From a virus: DNA of 22,903 nt. Each line of letters begins with the position of its first letter. Position 1 is the first letter of the stretch. Location: positions 1 through 22,903 of IMG/VR virus record IMGVR_UViG_3300027714_000130. One strand, given 5' to 3'. A program made the translations under genes and the position numbers. The notes beneath the pieces were generated by a model. That model was not told the DNA's origin. It searched no databases and saw nothing but the letters and a program-made list of their open reading frames with translations. Positions 1,292 through 17,723 of this stretch are shown piece after piece.

Positions 1292-2863
1292 ATGGAGTAC
1301 AACAACCCTAGTCTCCTTATCAAAGACTTAAACTTTGGTGAGGATGCTAAAAGTAAAATTGGTGCTGGGGTAGAGAAACTTGCGAAAGCAGTAAAATCTA
1401 CCCTAGGAGCATCAGGTAAGTGTGTCATATATGAAGATGCACGTGGAATGCCGGTAATCACAAAAGACGGAGTAACCGTTGCAGAAAGCGTAGTCTTATA
1501 CGATCCGGTTGAAAACATAGGAGCTACTTTAATAAAAGAAGCTGCTAAGAATACGGTAAGAGAAGCCGGTGACGGTACTACAACAGCAACAGTTCTTGCT
1601 GAATCCTTACTAAACACTATAAACTCTTCTAAATTTAAGGATTCCTCCACTCGTGTTCTGCGAGATGGTGTCAATAGTGGTTTAAAGAAAGTTAACAACT
1701 ACTTAGACTCTGTTAAAATAGACGTAACTGACCAAACATTAACTAACGTAGCTGCTATTTCGTGTAACAACGATTCAGAGCTAGGTGAAATCATCGCAGA
1801 GGCTTACAAAAAAGTTGGTAAAGATGGTTTTGTGCTTATGGAAGAGTCAGAGACTGAAGAAACCTACGTAGAGGTTGTTGATGGAGTACAATTTGATTGT
1901 GGATTAACATCACCTCACTTTGTAACTAACACGGACAAGCAAAAAGCAGAGCTAGAAAATCCTTTAGTGCTAATATGCATGTCTGAAATACCTAACATAC
2001 GTAAGATACAGACTATACTAGAGTATGCTATTAAAAACAACCGAGCTTTACTTATAGTAGCGCCTGTTGCTCAGCAAGTAAAATCGGCTCTACTCATGAA
2101 TAAGGTTAAAGGTAATATTAAGATCAACATTATTGATCTACCTGGTTTTGGTCCTGGTAAAAAAGATACATGTGAAGACCTAGCTGTACTAACCGGCGCC
2201 ACCGTGTTAAACGAAGAACTAGGAGACGACTTAGATTCTGTAACTATAGAAATGCTTGGAGAAGCTGAGTACTCTACTACAGACGACAAGAACACTGTTC
2301 TTACTGTAGATACAGACCTTGAAGCTTTAGAAGAAAGAATAGATCAAGTTAACAAAAAAATTGCTGATGAAAAAAATAGTTTCCTTAAAAAGAAGCTGGA
2401 ACAGAGATTGTCTATGTTATCAGGTTCGGTTGGAGTTATTAAAGTTGGCGCTGATTCTAAAGTTGAGCTTAAAGAAAAGAAGGATAGAGTTGAGGATGCG
2501 ATATACGCAACCAAAGCGGCGCTAAAGGAAGGTATAGTACCTGGTGGTGGAGTTGCATTGCTAAACGCTTCCACTGAAATAGAAGCTACTTGTGCTGGAG
2601 AGCAAGCTTTGCTAGACTCTATAAAGTCACCGTTTGAAACTATACTACATAATGCTGGTTTTGAAACTTTTGGCCATCCCACTGAGGTTGGATATGGATT
2701 GGACGTAGTAACAGGTGGTGAAGTTGATATGGTTAAGTCAGGGATCATTGACCCAGTTCTAGTAACTAAGTCAGCACTAAAAAATGCAGTTAGTGTTGTA
2801 ATGACTATTGTTTCTGCAGATTGTGTAATTTCAAATGCTAGAGCAGAAGATGAAGGCCATTAA
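1292..2863 (+). CDS. groEL: gp4: phage-encoded GroEL-type chaperonin (Cpn60)
   Basis: A 523-residue group I chaperonin subunit that would form ATP-driven folding rings in the cytoplasm. The nucleotide-site motifs are in place: TLGASGK at 37-43, ITKDG with Asp59 (the D52 position of E. coli GroEL), GDGTTT at 93-98 with Asp94 (D87), VEDA with Asp402 (the catalytic D398), and GGGVALL at 418-424. Equatorial, intermediate and apical regions follow the normal order. It is about 25 residues shorter than E. coli GroEL and ends in RAEDEGH, lacking the GGM-rich tail. By eye, several apical substrate/co-chaperonin contact positions differ from E. coli: His for Tyr203, Leu for Tyr199 and Gln for Leu234. 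groES overlaps its 3' end by 14 bases, so the two are likely translationally coupled. The likely role is folding of phage capsid or tail proteins. Confidence 0.97.
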   Translation: MEYNNPSLLIKDLNFGEDAKSKIGAGVEKLAKAVKSTLGASGKCVIYEDARGMPVITKDGVTVAESVVLYDPVENIGATLIKEAAKNTVREAGDGTTTATVLAESLLNTINSSKFKDSSTRVLRDGVNSGLKKVNNYLDSVKIDVTDQTLTNVAAISCNNDSELGEIIAEAYKKVGKDGFVLMEESETEETYVEVVDGVQFDCGLTSPHFVTNTDKQKAELENPLVLICMSEIPNIRKIQTILEYAIKNNRALLIVAPVAQQVKSALLMNKVKGNIKINIIDLPGFGPGKKDTCEDLAVLTGATVLNEELGDDLDSVTIEMLGEAEYSTTDDKNTVLTVDTDLEALEERIDQVNKKIADEKNSFLKKKLEQRLSMLSGSVGVIKVGADSKVELKEKKDRVEDAIYATKAALKEGIVPGGGVALLNASTEIEATCAGEQALLDSIKSPFETILHNAGFETFGHPTEVGYGLDVVTGGEVDMVKSGIIDPVLVTKSALKNAVSVVMTIVSADCVISNARAEDEGH

Positions 2864-3107
2864 CCATTACGTCGTAGTAGACAAAATAAAAACAGAGCAA
2901 AAGAAGATCGCTGGTCTTATAATGACAGAAGATCTTGACGAAGACAATAGATACGTTAAAGCAAACGTTGTATCTGTAGGCAACCTAGTTGAAGGTATAA
3001 AAGACAGTGATGTAGTCTATTATGATAAGCACGCTGGACACGGAGTACAATTTGAGGATAAACTTTATTTTGTAATCAAAGCAAGTGATATTGTATTGGT
3101 AGATTAA
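2850..3107 (+). CDS. groES: gp5: GroES-type co-chaperonin (Cpn10)
   Basis: An 85-residue co-chaperonin, the lid of the GroEL chamber. I use the ATG at 2850 (MKAINHYVVV), because it aligns with the GroES N-terminus; an in-frame ATG at 2835 would add MLEQK and overlap groEL further. The N-terminal strand VVVDKI, the mobile loop with GLIMTE at 22-27 (matching GIVLTG, the GroEL-binding tripeptide region of GroES), VVSVGN at 40-45 and the C-terminal strand ASDIVLVD all line up with the family. The usual length is 95-100, so the roof hairpin and other loops are shortened. It overlaps groEL by 14 bases and comes after it, whereas bacterial operons place groES first. Confidence 0.9.
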   Translation: MKAINHYVVVDKIKTEQKKIAGLIMTEDLDEDNRYVKANVVSVGNLVEGIKDSDVVYYDKHAGHGVQFEDKLYFVIKASDIVLVD

Positions 3108-3182
3108 ACGTAAACCACAATCCACAAACTTTAAACACAAGATCTTTAAACAAATTATTAATTAATCATAAAAAAAATTAAA
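3108..3182 (+). promoter_or_regulatory. A/T-rich leader before gp6, with a 9-base direct repeat
   Basis: This 75-base gap separates the chaperonin pair from the paralogue array. CTTTAAACA occurs at 3129-3137 and again at 3144-3152, 15 bases apart, followed by TTATTAATTAAT and a run of A before the gp6 ATG. The spacing would suit a promoter or regulator site for gp6-gp9, but I see no clear -33/-7 pair. Confidence 0.3.
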
Positions 3183-3548
3183 ATGGCAAAAGAAAATTTT
3201 TTATTTTTCCAGGAAAATGCGTTGGGTGCATCAGCAACAGCGTATTTAGCTAAAGCAAGTAATTTCCTAGGAGCAGACTCAAGCGCAACTAATAAAATCA
3301 AATTATCGTTTAAAGCTGCAGCTGGTACTGCGGCCGATGACTTGATAGAATTAACGTTTACTCCAGCAGGAGCACACGAACAAGTCATGAAAGCTGTCGC
3401 GGGAGCTATGGCTAACGGGGCAAATGTTAGAACAAACTTCAATACAGTATACGACGGTGTAAACTCAACAGGTGTTGGGATGGCTTGCCCGAGCACAAGA
3501 CTTGGCGCCGCTGTTAATATCACTGTATGTGACATTGTACTAGGATAA
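3183..3548 (+). CDS. gp6: small protein, first member of a four-gene paralogue array
   Basis: A 121-residue protein of unknown function, mostly small residues (Ala, Gly, Thr, Asn). It begins NFLFF after a short lead and has a central block IKLSFKAAAG followed by DDLIELTFTPAG and HEQVMKAVAGAMANGA. This block recurs in gp7, gp8 and gp9 in the same order: a strand ending in SFK or similar, a glycine, a D-x-I-x-LT strand, then a helix with VM-x-AV and AN. The C-terminus ends in a beta strand (ITVCDIVLG), as in the others. Gly/Ala/Thr-rich beta proteins of this size in phages are often virion components, but position and composition are the only support here. It follows groES across a 75-base leader. 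Confidence 0.8.
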   Translation: MAKENFLFFQENALGASATAYLAKASNFLGADSSATNKIKLSFKAAAGTAADDLIELTFTPAGAHEQVMKAVAGAMANGANVRTNFNTVYDGVNSTGVGMACPSTRLGAAVNITVCDIVLG

Positions 3549-3573
3549 TTATAAACTTTAAAAACATAAAAAA

Positions 3574-3927
3574 ATGAATCAGAATAAGAACTTTTTATAT
3601 TCAGCTAATGGCGACGATGCTATTTCAGCTACTATGGAAGCTTTAATGTTTCCAGCTACAGCAATAACAGGAATGTTTGGAGCTAGTGCTACAACTACTA
3701 ACGTAAGTATTCAGACTACAACAGGTGCTGGTAATAATAATCATCAAATGCTTATTACACATGCTTCTTTAAAAAACAAAGAGGTTATGAACGCTGTTGT
3801 TAAGCTGGCTAATTCAGCTGGCCCATTTACAGTTATATCTGCTTTTCCAGTTGGAGGACCAGAGTTATTTCCAATAAATAATTTAGATGGAACAATATTA
3901 GTTACTAACATTGCAATTACTGCATAA
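3574..3927 (+). CDS. gp7: small protein, second member of the paralogue array
   Basis: A 117-residue protein. It starts NKNFLYS, like NFLFF in gp6, then has a Thr/Ala/Gly-rich stretch, the strand QMLITHAS and the helix NKEVMNAVVKLANSAG, which matches HEQVMKAVAGAMANGA of gp6 and YKDVCVAMEELANGTY of gp8. It ends in strands ILVTNIAITA. No catalytic motif, signal peptide or membrane segment can be seen. The ATG follows AAAAACATAAAAAA, with no Shine-Dalgarno sequence. I interpret it as a paralogue of gp6, probably arising by tandem duplication and long divergence. A virion role is plausible but unproven. Confidence 0.8.
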   Translation: MNQNKNFLYSANGDDAISATMEALMFPATAITGMFGASATTTNVSIQTTTGAGNNNHQMLITHASLKNKEVMNAVVKLANSAGPFTVISAFPVGGPELFPINNLDGTILVTNIAITA

Positions 3928-3940
3928 TAAATAAAAAAAA

Positions 3941-4768
3941 ATGGATAATTACGTATATTTTGGCAAGAGATCACACTTCTCTTGTCTAGCAAACGGTAGT
4001 GTACAGACTTCAGATGCTTTAACGGCAGCTAACTTTGGCATAGTACCAGCAGACTTTACGGCTGCAACAGCAACAGAAGAGGCTCAAGGTTATGAGATGT
4101 TTATAGAAACTAAAGAAGCAAATGGATCTACCAGAGGAACTGCTCTTACAGCATTAGGTGATGTTATCACTGGGGAAGTTAAAGCAGGTAATGCCGCTGC
4201 AAAAGCAACAACAATAATTGGTGATGTTACAAGGTTAAAGTTTGACACTGTTGGTATGTCTAGTGGCGTATTGACTGTGGCTAACTTTGGTGCTGATGGG
4301 ACTGATGGCTATTTAGTTGATGCTGCTGACAGATGGATTATTAGAGAAAAAATTGGAAGTACAAACAACGCTTTGTCTGATGTGCCTGCTATAAACCAAG
4401 CTGCTTGTTTGAATATGGCTAACTTTATCAGTGCAGACCCTGTTGACACAGCTACAGCTGCTACTGTTGGTATTGGTATTATTGGTGGAAACGCTGATGG
4501 TCTTGGTGGTACTATTGCAGATATTGACCAAACTCTTTTGTCTTTCAAATCAGTTAAAGGTGATGCTACAAATGACACAATACTTCTAACACACACTTCG
4601 GGTGCTTACAAAGATGTTTGTGTTGCTATGGAAGAATTAGCTAACGGTACTTACCACAGAAACAGCAAGGGTTACTATACTTTTACTGATTTGATGAGTG
4701 GCAAGAAAACTATATGGGAACAAAGATTAGGAATAATCGGATGCTCTATGGTAGTTCAAGCAGTATAA
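3941..4768 (+). CDS. gp8: enlarged member of the paralogue array, 275 residues
   Basis: This protein is over twice the length of its neighbours. The shared block lies in the C-terminal third: LLSFKSVKGDA, then NDTILLTHTSGA and the helix KDVCVAMEELANG, then a strand-rich end (IIGCSMVVQAV). Ahead of it are about 190 residues rich in Ala, Thr, Gly and Asp with no motif I know, opening with YVYFGKRSHFSC. Residues near 20-120 look like alternating strands. No signal peptide or membrane segment is present. The extra N-terminal part is either an insertion between the start and the shared block or a fused domain. Two bases after its stop begins a remnant of a gp10-like gene, so gp8 was once followed directly by that gene. 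Confidence 0.8.
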   Translation: MDNYVYFGKRSHFSCLANGSVQTSDALTAANFGIVPADFTAATATEEAQGYEMFIETKEANGSTRGTALTALGDVITGEVKAGNAAAKATTIIGDVTRLKFDTVGMSSGVLTVANFGADGTDGYLVDAADRWIIREKIGSTNNALSDVPAINQAACLNMANFISADPVDTATAATVGIGIIGGNADGLGGTIADIDQTLLSFKSVKGDATNDTILLTHTSGAYKDVCVAMEELANGTYHRNSKGYYTFTDLMSGKKTIWEQRLGIIGCSMVVQAV

Positions 4769-4770
4769 GC

Positions 4771-4854
4771 TTGAGACTAACTAGTCACGATTTGCGTGAA
4801 TTACAAATCCTAACGTATTACAGGCTCACTAGAAAGTGGGTCTGTAGACCTTAG
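4771..4854 (+). pseudogene. Remnant of a gp10-like gene (N-terminal 27 codons)
   Basis: Read from TTG at 4771, this stretch encodes 27 codons to a TAG at 4852. The first 25 residues match the start of gp10 at 19 positions with no gap: for example RLTS-x-DLR, then LQ-x-L-x-YYRL and RKW-x-C. DNA similarity continues raggedly to about 4860 (GACCTTAGGTTA against ACCTACGGGTTGA) with small deletions that break the frame, then stops at the gp9 leader. Many differences from gp10 are synonymous (TTG/CTT, CGT/AGA, CTC/CTT), so the two copies diverged under selection before this one was truncated. It is most simply the stump of a displaced homologue left by recombination. A functional 27-residue peptide coupled to gp8 cannot be excluded. 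Confidence 0.8.
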
Positions 4855-4868
4855 GTTAAAAAAACAAT

Positions 4869-5234
4869 ATGGAAAAATTATTAGTATTTAACGAGCAAGG
4901 TACTGCTGCCGACGTAGGTGAAACTGTGCATGACGTAGCCGCTTACCCTTTATCTAAGTTTAAAGGTTTTACTAATACTGGCACTACTAACACGCAGTTG
5001 CAAATGATTTTTGAAGGAATGGAAGAAGGTTCTGCCGATGGTGATGCTTCTTCTGTAGATACAATAACGCTTACCATAACTGCCAATAAACAGTATGAAG
5101 CTATGTTGTCTATATGGAACTTCATAAACTCTGATCAAATAAATGGAGTCTACGTTATATGGGATGAATTAAGTAGCTTGCCACATGCAGGGTATGTTTC
5201 AGGATGTGCTATATCTATTTCTTCTGCTGATTAA
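4869..5234 (+). CDS. gp9: small protein, fourth member of the paralogue array
   Basis: A 121-residue protein starting MEKLLVF. The shared block appears as LQMIFEGMEEG, VDTITLTITAN and QYEAMLSIWNFINSDQ, corresponding to SFK..G, D-x-I-x-LT and the VM-x-AV helix of gp6-gp8, with the asparagine near the end of the helix retained. It is more acidic than the others (EGSADGDASSVD). It ends in CAISISSAD, again a short C-terminal strand. Its stop overlaps the gp10 start (TAATG), so gp9 and gp10 are probably coupled. It lies between the gp10-like remnant and the intact gp10, which suggests that gp9 and gp10 arrived together. Function unknown. Confidence 0.8.
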   Translation: MEKLLVFNEQGTAADVGETVHDVAAYPLSKFKGFTNTGTTNTQLQMIFEGMEEGSADGDASSVDTITLTITANKQYEAMLSIWNFINSDQINGVYVIWDELSSLPHAGYVSGCAISISSAD

Positions 5235-5674
5235 TGAGGCTAACCAGCTCAGATCTTAGAGATCTACAATTGCTAAAATACTATAGGCTTGCTAGAAAGT
5301 GGGCTTGTAAAACCTACGGGTTGACAGACGCTGATCTTGAACTATTAATATATTTAGACTGCAAGAGAAGATTTACAAGACAAGAGTTCATTGATGGTAC
5401 TTATACTATGAGTTGGGATAAGTCTAGGTGGGACAAACTAAGAAAACTAGGCTGGATAGAAACTTGGAGGCATAGAAACAGAACAACAATAAAATACTCT
5501 GTTTTTAAAACGTCGTTTAAGTGTAGTCAATTAATAAGTAGAATATACAGAATACTACTAGGTGAAGAAGATTTACCAACATCAGAGCGAAGCGTATTCT
5601 ACGATAACAAGTCGTATACTGATAAGGTTTTTAATAAAGCTATTGATGATATGATAAAAGATACAGATAGATAA
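5234..5674 (+). CDS. gp10: putative winged-helix protein
   Basis: A 146-residue protein with a layout resembling MarR-type winged helices. Two helices (about 5-42, including LQLLKYYRLARKW and DLELLIYLD) are followed by a helix-turn-helix-like part (FTRQEFID at 47-54, then WDKSRWDKLRKLGWI at 61-75), and a beta wing rich in basic residues (TWRHRNRTTIKYSV, 78-90). A further helix (CSQLISRIYRILLG) and a polar tail follow. The resemblance is by eye, and a virion or tail-assembly role cannot be ruled out given the structural-gene surroundings. A stump of a second copy lies upstream at 4771. The ATG overlaps the gp9 stop. If it binds DNA it could control late genes, but no operator was identified. 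Confidence 0.75.
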   Translation: MRLTSSDLRDLQLLKYYRLARKWACKTYGLTDADLELLIYLDCKRRFTRQEFIDGTYTMSWDKSRWDKLRKLGWIETWRHRNRTTIKYSVFKTSFKCSQLISRIYRILLGEEDLPTSERSVFYDNKSYTDKVFNKAIDDMIKDTDR

Positions 5675-5675
5675 T

Positions 5676-6065
5676 ATGGCGTTTAAACTAGGCTCAGAAA
5701 GCAGAAGAGTTAGAAGCTCGAAAGATACACCAATATTTAGAAAAAAACTAGATAAAGGTATACTAGGAGAGGCTAATATGGATGGATCTATCTACATAGA
5801 TAAGTCTGTGCCTAAAAATAGTGCGCTAGAAAAAAGAGTTAAGAATCACGAAGGCTTACACGCTAAAGAAATGAAAGCTGGAAAAATTAGCTACACTGAT
5901 GAAAAAGTAACAGACAGAATAGCTGAGGTTGAGTACAAGAGAGAAGATGGTGAGCTAATAGTAACATCTAGTAAAACTAAAGGAATAAAGCCTGGAGATA
6001 AGTTTAAAGAAGGTGATTCAAAGTTACCACATGAAACTAGAGCTGAAAAGGCAGAAAAATCATAA
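5676..6065 (+). CDS. gp11: small protein with an HExxH metallopeptidase-like motif
   Basis: A 129-residue basic protein. HEGLH at 58-62 fits the HExxH zinc-binding signature, with Glu59 as the would-be catalytic base, in a helix-like context (EKRVKNHEGLHAKEM). A third ligand is not obvious: Glu65 is close by, and Glu87/Glu89 in RIAEVEY are candidates. The N-terminal half (ILGEANMDGSIYIDKSVPKNS) reads like a short strand pair before the motif, as in small minimal metalloproteases, and the last 40 residues are polar and low in complexity. There is no signal peptide. It lies one base after gp10 and just ahead of the holin-like genes, which could fit a lysis or virion-associated peptidase, but activity is not demonstrated. 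Confidence 0.75.
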   Translation: MAFKLGSESRRVRSSKDTPIFRKKLDKGILGEANMDGSIYIDKSVPKNSALEKRVKNHEGLHAKEMKAGKISYTDEKVTDRIAEVEYKREDGELIVTSSKTKGIKPGDKFKEGDSKLPHETRAEKAEKS

Positions 6066-6066
6066 T

Positions 6067-6279
6067 ATGAATATATTTAAAGATAACAACGAGTATAACG
6101 AAAAGTCAATCATCGGCGCAGTAGCATTTGCTATCATGTGCTTAATTATGATCGCTGACTTGGTTACAGGCGTTACGGGAACAGATCTAGTTATAAATGA
6201 GTTTGTATACGACTCGTTTGTTTTAGTGGTCTTAGGATGCTTCGGAATAGCTGGATTAGAAAAATTTGCTAAGAAATGA
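6067..6279 (+). CDS. gp12: small membrane protein with two transmembrane segments
   Basis: A 70-residue protein if the ATG at 6067 is used; an in-frame ATG at 6013 would sit inside gp11 and add a polar stretch with no support. After a hydrophilic N-terminus (NIFKDNNEYNEKS) come two hydrophobic segments: about 14-36 (IIGAVAFAIMCLIMIADLV) and 46-64 (DSFVLVVLGCFGIAGL), ending in the basic EKFAKK. Size, the two membrane spans and the overlap with the following 3TM-holin-like gene (ATGA, four bases) suggest a holin partner or antiholin. I cannot assign it to a named holin family. It might equally be another small phage inner-membrane protein. Confidence 0.7.
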   Translation: MNIFKDNNEYNEKSIIGAVAFAIMCLIMIADLVTGVTGTDLVINEFVYDSFVLVVLGCFGIAGLEKFAKK

Positions 6280-15300: not shown

Positions 15301-16743
15301 ATGGCAATTACAAGTGCAAGTCAGACTAGAGCTGCTGCTGTTCAGCAGACTTTATCTGACAATTATTTAGACATCCAAAACAATGGGTGGGCTCAACAAT
15401 ATCTTCCAGACCTAATGGAGAAAGAAGCTGAAGTGTTCGGTAAAAGAACAATTTCTGGTTTCTTAGCTCAAGTTGGTGCTGAAGAGGCAATGAGCGCAGA
15501 CCAAGTTGTTTGGTCGGAACAAGGTAGATTACATTTATCTTACAAAGGTACTGTTGGTACTCACACTACTAGTACTATTCAGCTAGACACTGATATTGAT
15601 GGTAATGATGTTGGTACTACTCATGGTGTTCGTGTTGGTGATACTGTATTGATTGCTTCTGCTGCTTTAACAGTAAGAGCATTCGTTAGTCAAATCAACT
15701 CTGATACTAATGGTGATCAAAACACAGGTGCTACAGACTTCATTACGGCTATTCCTTACGACGCTGAGCATTTAGATAACTCTGGATTTGGAACTAATGA
15801 TCCTGTTACAATATTAGTCTACGGTTCTGAGCACTCTAAAGGTACTACGGGAAAAGTAGGAGCTAATGAGCCTTCTTTCACTTCTTTTACTAACAAGCCT
15901 ATTATCATGAAAGATATGTACCAGGTTTCTGGATCTGATGCATCTCAAGTTGGTTGGGTTGAAGTTTCTGGTGAAGACGGACAAAACGGTTACATGTGGT
16001 ATTTGAAAGCTGAAGGTGACACTAGATCACGTTTTGCTGATTACACTGAAATGGCGTTGGTTGAAGCAGAAAAAGCTGCTGATGCTTCTACTATCTTAGG
16101 TGGAGCAAACGGACTAGTTGGTACTGAAGGTTTATTCTCTGCTATTTCTAATAGAGGTCACCAAACTTCTGGTGTTACTGGTGTTAATGCTGCTACTGAC
16201 TTAGCTGAATTTGATGCTATCTTAGCTGAATTTGACAAGAACGGTGCAATCGAAGAAAACATGTTATTCTTAAACAGAGCAACTAGCTTGGCTTTTGATG
16301 ATATGTTAGCTTCTATGAATTCTTACGGTGCTGGTGGTACTTCTTACGGAGTATTTGACAACAACGAAGATATGGCATTGAACTTAGGATTCTCAGGATT
16401 TAGAAGAGGTTCTTATGACTTCTACAAGTCTGACTGGAAATATCTTAACGATTTATCTACACGTGGTGGTATCAACGAAAGAAACGCTACTGGTGCAATC
16501 CGTGGGGTTGTTATTCCTGCTGGTACTTCTTCTGTGTACGATGAGCAATTAGGTAAAAACCTAAAGCGTCCATTTTTACACGTTCGTTACAGAGCTTCTC
16601 AAACTGAATCTCGTAAGATGAAAACTTGGATCACTGGTTCTGTAGGAGCTGTTACATCTGACTTAGATGCAATGACTGTAAACTTTTTAACTGAAAGATG
16701 TTTAGTAGTTCAAGCTGCTAATAACTTCATGTTAATGAACTAG
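15301..16743 (+). CDS. gp24: major capsid protein
   Basis: A 480-residue protein that follows the scaffold and is closed by a terminator, the expected context for the major head protein. It has an N-terminal arm (residues 1-45 with QQTLSDNYLDIQNNGW), a long insert of beta segments, then helices and strands ending in a characteristic C-terminal block (RPFLHVRYRASQTESRKMKTWITG and a final ...QAANNFMLMN). HK97-type folds look similar, but no single motif proves it. Codon use differs from the neighbours: of 20 isoleucine codons only one is ATA (ten ATT, nine ATC), whereas surrounding genes use ATA freely, and CGT and GGT are more common. This is typical of a very highly expressed gene. Confidence 0.88.
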   Translation: MAITSASQTRAAAVQQTLSDNYLDIQNNGWAQQYLPDLMEKEAEVFGKRTISGFLAQVGAEEAMSADQVVWSEQGRLHLSYKGTVGTHTTSTIQLDTDIDGNDVGTTHGVRVGDTVLIASAALTVRAFVSQINSDTNGDQNTGATDFITAIPYDAEHLDNSGFGTNDPVTILVYGSEHSKGTTGKVGANEPSFTSFTNKPIIMKDMYQVSGSDASQVGWVEVSGEDGQNGYMWYLKAEGDTRSRFADYTEMALVEAEKAADASTILGGANGLVGTEGLFSAISNRGHQTSGVTGVNAATDLAEFDAILAEFDKNGAIEENMLFLNRATSLAFDDMLASMNSYGAGGTSYGVFDNNEDMALNLGFSGFRRGSYDFYKSDWKYLNDLSTRGGINERNATGAIRGVVIPAGTSSVYDEQLGKNLKRPFLHVRYRASQTESRKMKTWITGSVGAVTSDLDAMTVNFLTERCLVVQAANNFMLMN

Positions 16744-16759
16744 TATTAGATTACTTAAG

Positions 16760-16792
16760 AGGGTCGGGGCTATCGCCTCGATCCCTTTTTTT
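16760..16792 (+). terminator. Rho-independent terminator after the major capsid gene
   Basis: AGGGTCGGGGC (16760-16770) pairs with GCCTCGATCCCT (16775-16786) around the loop TATC, with one bulged base and one G-T pair, and a run of seven T follows (16786-16792). It starts 16 bases after the gp24 stop and should end most transcripts there, limiting expression of gp25 onwards relative to the capsid protein. Confidence 0.88.
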
Positions 16793-17658: not shown

Positions 17659-17665
17659 TTAATCA

Positions 17666-17710
17666 TTATAGTAGAGCAGCCACTCTTCGGGGGTGGTTGC
17701 TAAACTATAA
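17666..17710 (+). promoter_or_regulatory. Long UUCG-loop hairpin just before gp26
   Basis: TTATAGT (17666-17672) pairs exactly with ACTATAA (17704-17710) and, after a small internal loop, GCAGCCACTC (17676-17685) pairs with GGGTGGTTGC (17691-17700) with two G-T pairs, closing on TTCGG. The hairpin ends 13 bases before the gp26 ATG, and a run of A, not T, follows. It may be a transcript-processing site, an mRNA stabiliser or a translational control element. It lacks the T tract of a terminator. Confidence 0.7.
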
Positions 17711-17723
17711 AAAAAAAGACACA

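Follow-up and report, generated by a model that had tools for sequence, protein, structure and literature searches.

In the 22.9-kb marine virus record analysed here (22,903 nucleotides, hereafter the window), a displaced copy of the gp10 start is located between gp8 and gp9. It has the appearance of a functional signal that was displaced, not of debris, since its coding constraint is gone while it keeps the strong hairpin that is common to nearly all relatives. We favour, with a probability of about 0.6, the interpretation that it is a relocated mRNA element that ends a cassette of exchangeable genes and that would both stabilise the cassette transcript and insulate gp10, a mechanism that we infer from the comparison of sequences.

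The window is related by its terminase to podophages of Cellulophaga and Flavobacterium, and GroEL has been found in many members of that terminase lineage, named "group 2" (Nishimura et al., 2017, PMC5332604). Its gene order is groEL, groES, four ORFs of one diverse family, then gp10 (Table 1). The exchangeable block between groES and gp10, hereafter the cassette, holds one to five such paralogous ORFs per locus. The 262 cassette ORFs gathered in alignment A3 encode diverse proteins of 95–316 aa with an aromatic N-terminus (MEKYLYF). The model of gp9 (pLDDT 84.9) presents a predicted beta-rich fold for which no match was found in the PDB, its sequence matches are uncharacterised viral proteins only, and neither gp8 nor gp9 has a Pfam match or a convincing PHROG match. 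The loci studied are the best-scoring relatives among those listed and represent a sample of the population, the viral and metagenome collections containing more than 587 gp10 loci; among 50,697 phage records searched at the DNA and protein levels, no relative of the locus or of gp8 was found. Elsewhere in the window, a hairpin with a T-run directly past the putative major capsid gene (16740–16792) is a plausible intrinsic terminator, and a long hairpin without T-run past a gene of 280 aa (17660–17712) is possibly another 3′ RNA structure.

Table 1. Features of the region between groES and the end of gp10 (positions in the window).
Feature	Position	Strand	Basis or relatives
G-depleted, A/C-rich leader, groES to first cassette ORF	3108–3182	+	base composition
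Cassette ORF 1, variable paralogous family	3183–3548	+	best relative 90% identical
Cassette ORF 2	3574–3927	+	best relative 96% identical
Cassette ORF 3 = gp8	3941–4768	+	82% to L082, 56% to L084
Displaced gp10 5′ element ("scar"): TTG ORF 4771–4854 of 27 codons, plus residual homology	4771–4860	+	alignment with gp10
Hairpin 1 of the displaced element, TCACG-ATTTG-CGTGA	4785–4799	+	folding; covariation between and within clades
Hairpin 2 (long) of the displaced element, 13-bp apical stem, lower stem re-registered	4809–4855	+	folding
Cassette ORF 4 = gp9, inserted	4869–5234	+	L125 and L127, where its nearest relatives (46% and 44%) are the last ORF before gp10
Intact gp10, MarR-like winged-helix protein (predicted); codons 1–30 diverged at the DNA level from nearly all relatives	5234–5674	+	
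Residual weakened hairpin inside intact gp10, apical 12 bp only, −14.5 kcal/mol	5282–5309	+	folding

The TTG codon of the scar lies two bases past the gp8 stop and opens an ORF that encodes, at 4771–4851, LRLTSHDLRELQILTYYRLTRKWVCRP, followed by a stop codon. The preliminary description had recognised here a copy of the gp10 N-terminus, broken in its reading frame. This copy is real: 18 of 25 residues are identical to gp10 (19 if the TTG is read as fMet), and the match reaches 38–54 bits depending on the gp10 query, all other places in about 80 loci scoring at most 25.4 bits. The frame break is likewise confirmed and corresponds to a 2-base net deletion near 4850; the homology to gp10 extends to about 4860, beyond the limit of 4845 first proposed. 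Over codons 2–25, the scar differs from the gp10 of its own genome by 11 synonymous and 11 non-synonymous nucleotide differences, against one of each when it is compared with the gp10 of the related locus L036, and its nucleotide identity is 71/75 to the L036 gp10 start versus 52/75 to the own-genome gp10. The body of the intact gp10 is ordinary (codons 31–146 show 78.4% identity to other gp10 genes, versus 79.0% among those genes) and its first 87 nt are diverged (68.9% to relatives, versus 85.1% among relatives), which, with a scar so close to the relatives, indicates that the downstream copy lost what the scar kept. Of the two, the scar has the gp10 start that is canonical for this phage group; the downstream gp10 start is the aberrant one. 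The remnant had been considered as the inert, decayed debris of a foreign gp10, and the divergence between the two copies as a sign of recombination with another phage. The closeness of the scar to the common gp10 start speaks against the former view, and the nucleotide divergence is better explained by the absence, in the downstream copy, of the strongly constrained RNA hairpin that the remnant retains.

The insertion of gp9 suggested in the same description agrees with the comparison of loci, as relatives in which gp8 directly precedes gp10, without gp9, do exist. Two gp8 relatives were identified outside of the window's phage, in L082 and L084, and the TTG start of gp10 is located 6 bases (L082) and 0 bases (L084) past the gp8 stop. 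L082 shares the first three cassette ORFs with the window (best identities 90%, 96% and 82%). From the gp8-gp10 order in L082 and L084 and the first three ORFs shared with L082, we conclude that the window's phage acquired gp9. Among the aligned sequences, those nearest to gp9 are themselves last ORFs before gp10 (Table 1), and the comparison supports the view that gp9 represents one more paralogue of an exchangeable family. The existence of L082 and L084 would also suit an inert scar, left by the insertion or duplication of a gp9-gp10 block, with the former gp10 start decaying since then without function. Such a history is consistent with the broken frame and with the presence of the scar in one phage only, represented by two records (the window and IMG/VR 3300027672_000558). 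The scar element folds at −29.0 kcal/mol overall (shuffle z −4.0), and its hairpin is retained weakly better than expected under random mutation (P about 0.10); the mutations in the scar being few, its youth could account for the retention there. The case for a present function rests therefore on the comparative pattern and on an independent displaced copy found in L184 and L179, and in view of both we consider an inert scar unlikely.

In intact gp10 genes, the region corresponding to the scar is under constraint at the nucleotide level. The first 30 codons exhibit strong synonymous-site conservation in 64 dereplicated gp10 genes, the synonymous divergence falling to 0.23–0.29 of expectation at codons 7–18 and 25–30, compared with about 0.7–0.9 in most of the remaining gene. 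These codons fold into a short hairpin followed by a long one, the latter composed of a 13-bp apical stem and two lower stems, with the loop AGAA in most sequences. When the gene is randomly recoded with preservation of the protein, the mean z is −8.1 for codons 2–31, versus −0.3, −1.1 and −1.0 for the other three segments. Over 152 distinct sequences, we counted 2295 Watson-Crick pairs, 430 G.U pairs and 1 A.C pair, and this ratio of 430 to 1 indicates that it is the mRNA-sense strand that folds. In alignment A1, 97.3% of the cells are paired, compared with 22–53% when the arms are slid, and a double compensatory change is seen in one hairpin pair only. The signal is less clear for hairpin 1 than for hairpin 2, since the variable pair of hairpin 1 is, in one clade, GC in 39 sequences, AT in 34, AC in 14 and GT in 3. 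The pairing of the element is thus selected beyond protein coding, as in conserved cis-acting RNA hairpins. In each of 17 large related contigs, a covariance model of the element gives a single strong match, located at the gp10 start, and it gives two in the window. A search of positions 2800–6100 against 4227 Rfam families (E up to 5) gave no match, and we found no description of the element in the literature. The element is not an intrinsic terminator, as the stem is followed by TTAAAAAAACAAT, without U-tract, and none was found at 4771–4870; scans for sigma-70 promoters and intrinsic terminators revealed no excess over chance. With 22 pairs and two internal loops, the candidate has the extent of an RNase III-type substrate (about 20 bp of double-stranded RNA).

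The strength of the hairpin is linked to the presence of a cassette. Among 162 unique loci in which groES was located, 152 carry a cassette of 372–2977 bp and 10 have no ORF between groES and gp10. With thresholds picked after the data had been seen, the gp10 hairpin is at or below −22.1 kcal/mol in 151 of the 152 cassette loci, whereas the 10 cassette-less loci all have a weaker one, between −4.4 and −20.4 kcal/mol. The sole exception is the window, in which the intact gp10 retains the weakened hairpin of Table 1 and the strong hairpin is found in the scar. That the single cassette locus devoid of a strong gp10 hairpin is the one with a scar hairpin argues against an inert scar. In a gp10 tree built on codons 31–146, whose support is weak (only 13 of its 93 inner branches are starred), the cassette state switches 9 times, and well-supported branches force at least three of these switches; hairpin and cassette state agree in 95 of the 96 rows. 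The gp10 start is probably exchanged by recombination along with the cassette, in which case the element itself would travel with it.

This behaviour raises the question of whether the hairpin could be a recombination or integration site (attC-like or a cassette boundary), acting as folded DNA, with tandem copies produced by successive integrations. The hairpin is indeed located at the cassette boundary, the 5′ end of gp10 switches with the cassette state independently of the gp10 body, and tandem arrays in which ORFs and hairpin are repeated do occur. Such a site is nevertheless quite improbable in our opinion: the excess of G.U over A.C pairs designates a strand folded as RNA, arrays of two to five ORFs normally carry one hairpin and not one per ORF, as attC sites would, and no recombinase was recognised beside the site or in the window, which is a genome fragment. 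The 81 single-ORF and 71 multi-ORF cassettes normally have one element each, with two exceptional tandem cases. In a speculative variant, to which we give equally little credit, the hairpin would combine both roles, cassette-end RNA and recombination junction, as the boundary signal of a phage-borne cassette exchange, and the displaced copies of the window and of L184/L179 would be fossil or active tandem integrations. If this were true, units made of variable ORFs, closed on the right by a folded element, would move in and out of the interval between groES and gp10.

In L184 and L179, which come from different metagenomes, a gp10-like start separates three cassette ORFs from two further ones, after which an intact gp10 follows. 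The peptide encoded by their displaced start is unrelated to gp10 past residue 14, and an 18-bp hairpin persists in the same region. Simulated random mutation of the parent sequence rarely leaves such a hairpin (P = 0.002 for the L184 copy), and the unconstrained scenario is rejected for this copy. The sole difference between L184 and L179 in hairpin 1 is CAA-TTG versus CAG-CTG, a compensatory pair. A hairpin maintained without coding sequence, with a compensatory difference between contigs, is hardly what an inert scar would leave. Two wide pattern scans for further scars returned just the same two phages. According to the preliminary description, a 27-codon ORF kept intact between gp8 and gp9 in relatives would have meant a functional short gene; no relative retains this ORF, and a conserved short gene was rejected on this ground. 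Both displaced copies have a TTG start just past the upstream stop and an ORF of 27–28 codons, as might be expected of a leader peptide. We nonetheless regard a leader peptide as very improbable, given that the L184 sequence changed its peptide and kept its hairpin, and that such an ORF occurs in no other relative.

The protein encoded by gp10 looks like a MarR-type winged-helix protein, an assignment to which we give moderate confidence. The best Foldseek matches of its predicted structure are all MarR-like (E 1.6e-3, probability 1.0), with a TM score of about 0.4 and a pLDDT of 69.6, and Pfam gave no match above its cut-off. A winged-helix protein whose gene start overlaps the element could be autoregulated: gp10, or another factor, would bind the hairpin of its own mRNA (or the corresponding DNA) and limit gp10 translation. 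The start codons of gp10, TTG or GTG in 59 of the 168 loci grouped as cassette-bearing versus 1 of the 10 without cassette, would fit such a control. However, the hairpin is weak or absent where gp10 directly follows groES, and the strong hairpin of the window is detached from gp10, which makes autoregulation distinctly unlikely.

We therefore return to the relocated cassette-end element, for which the following scenario can be proposed. The 3′ boundary of the cassette is marked by the two-hairpin mRNA element, which is normally included in gp10 codons 1–30. In the window's phage, the cassette ORF gp9 and a new gp10 start would have become intercalated between the gp10 body and this element; the reading frame of the original start would then have been lost and its RNA fold kept, the new start being only weakly hairpinned. 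The hairpin may end or protect the 3′ side of the cassette mRNA, through an exonuclease block or RNase III-type processing, and may shield gp10, putatively a regulator made in small amounts, from a heavily expressed cassette. Several features of the cassette fit a strongly expressed message, protected or processed at its 3′ end. The leader preceding the first cassette ORF contains 3% G across cassette loci, versus 20.8% in the whole window, and has the look of a translation leader devoid of structure. A second stop codon directly follows the first in 100 of 152 last cassette ORFs, compared with 24 of 110 inner ORFs and 1 of 152 groES genes, and the hairpin follows about 40–90 nt downstream of the stop of the last cassette ORF. 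If the hairpin served solely to protect the 3′ side of the last gene, a strong one would be expected after gp9, and there is none; as the strong hairpin of the window precedes gp10 with gp9 lying beyond it, insulation suits the arrangement better than a protective role towards the last gene. The leader (window 3108–3182 and the equivalent interval in cassette loci) includes, among other motifs, AAACCATAAACC and ATTATTAAT. A different long hairpin, for example ACCACGCTATTC-ATAC-GGGTAGCGTGGT, is found after a MGRVFF-type ORF, upstream of some cassettes (L003, L206, L209, L217, L235 and L239).

An abundant group of uncultured marine phages of Bacteroidetes type thus appears to carry a strong mRNA structure inside a conserved gene, coupled to a highly variable block of genes. 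The natural loss of coding with the fold kept separates selection on RNA from selection on protein, and what seems to be a gene scar in a phage genome may in fact be a regulatory element that was displaced. The element offers a concrete handle on how phages may fence off exchangeable, probably highly expressed genes.

In T7-like phages, intercistronic hairpins are processed by RNase III. The element resembles them as a long imperfect hairpin with internal loops, placed just past abundant late genes in a polycistronic message; it differs in that it is contained in the coding sequence of the following gene and tracks an exchangeable cassette, cleavage being here only putative. In a terminator library (PMC11696848), stem-loops that stabilise the upstream mRNA combined a 14-nt stem with energies of −28 to −22 kcal/mol; the element is close to these values, its apical stem having 13 bp and its energy in cassette loci ranging from −22 to −28.6 kcal/mol, but is not followed by a U-tract. 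Among retroregulatory or downstream RNA elements, the L17 downstream element is also a cis RNA element in downstream position, proposed to act on upstream genes (PMC2864571), from which our element differs by being embedded in a protein-coding region and by having no match in Rfam. Finally, Cellulophaga phage phi38:1 and the GroEL-bearing Flavobacteriaceae phages of "group 2" (PMC5332604) have a related terminase and gp10, the gp10 homologue of phi38:1 being preceded by a structural gene. These gp10 homologues are however only 26–36% identical, with matches beginning at query residue 9 or 10, past the start of the element region. In the phi38:1 genome (L086), a DNA invertase and the structural gene are encoded at 3294–4007, just upstream of the gp10 homologue. 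Their presence there hints at a locus that is variable in cultured relatives too.
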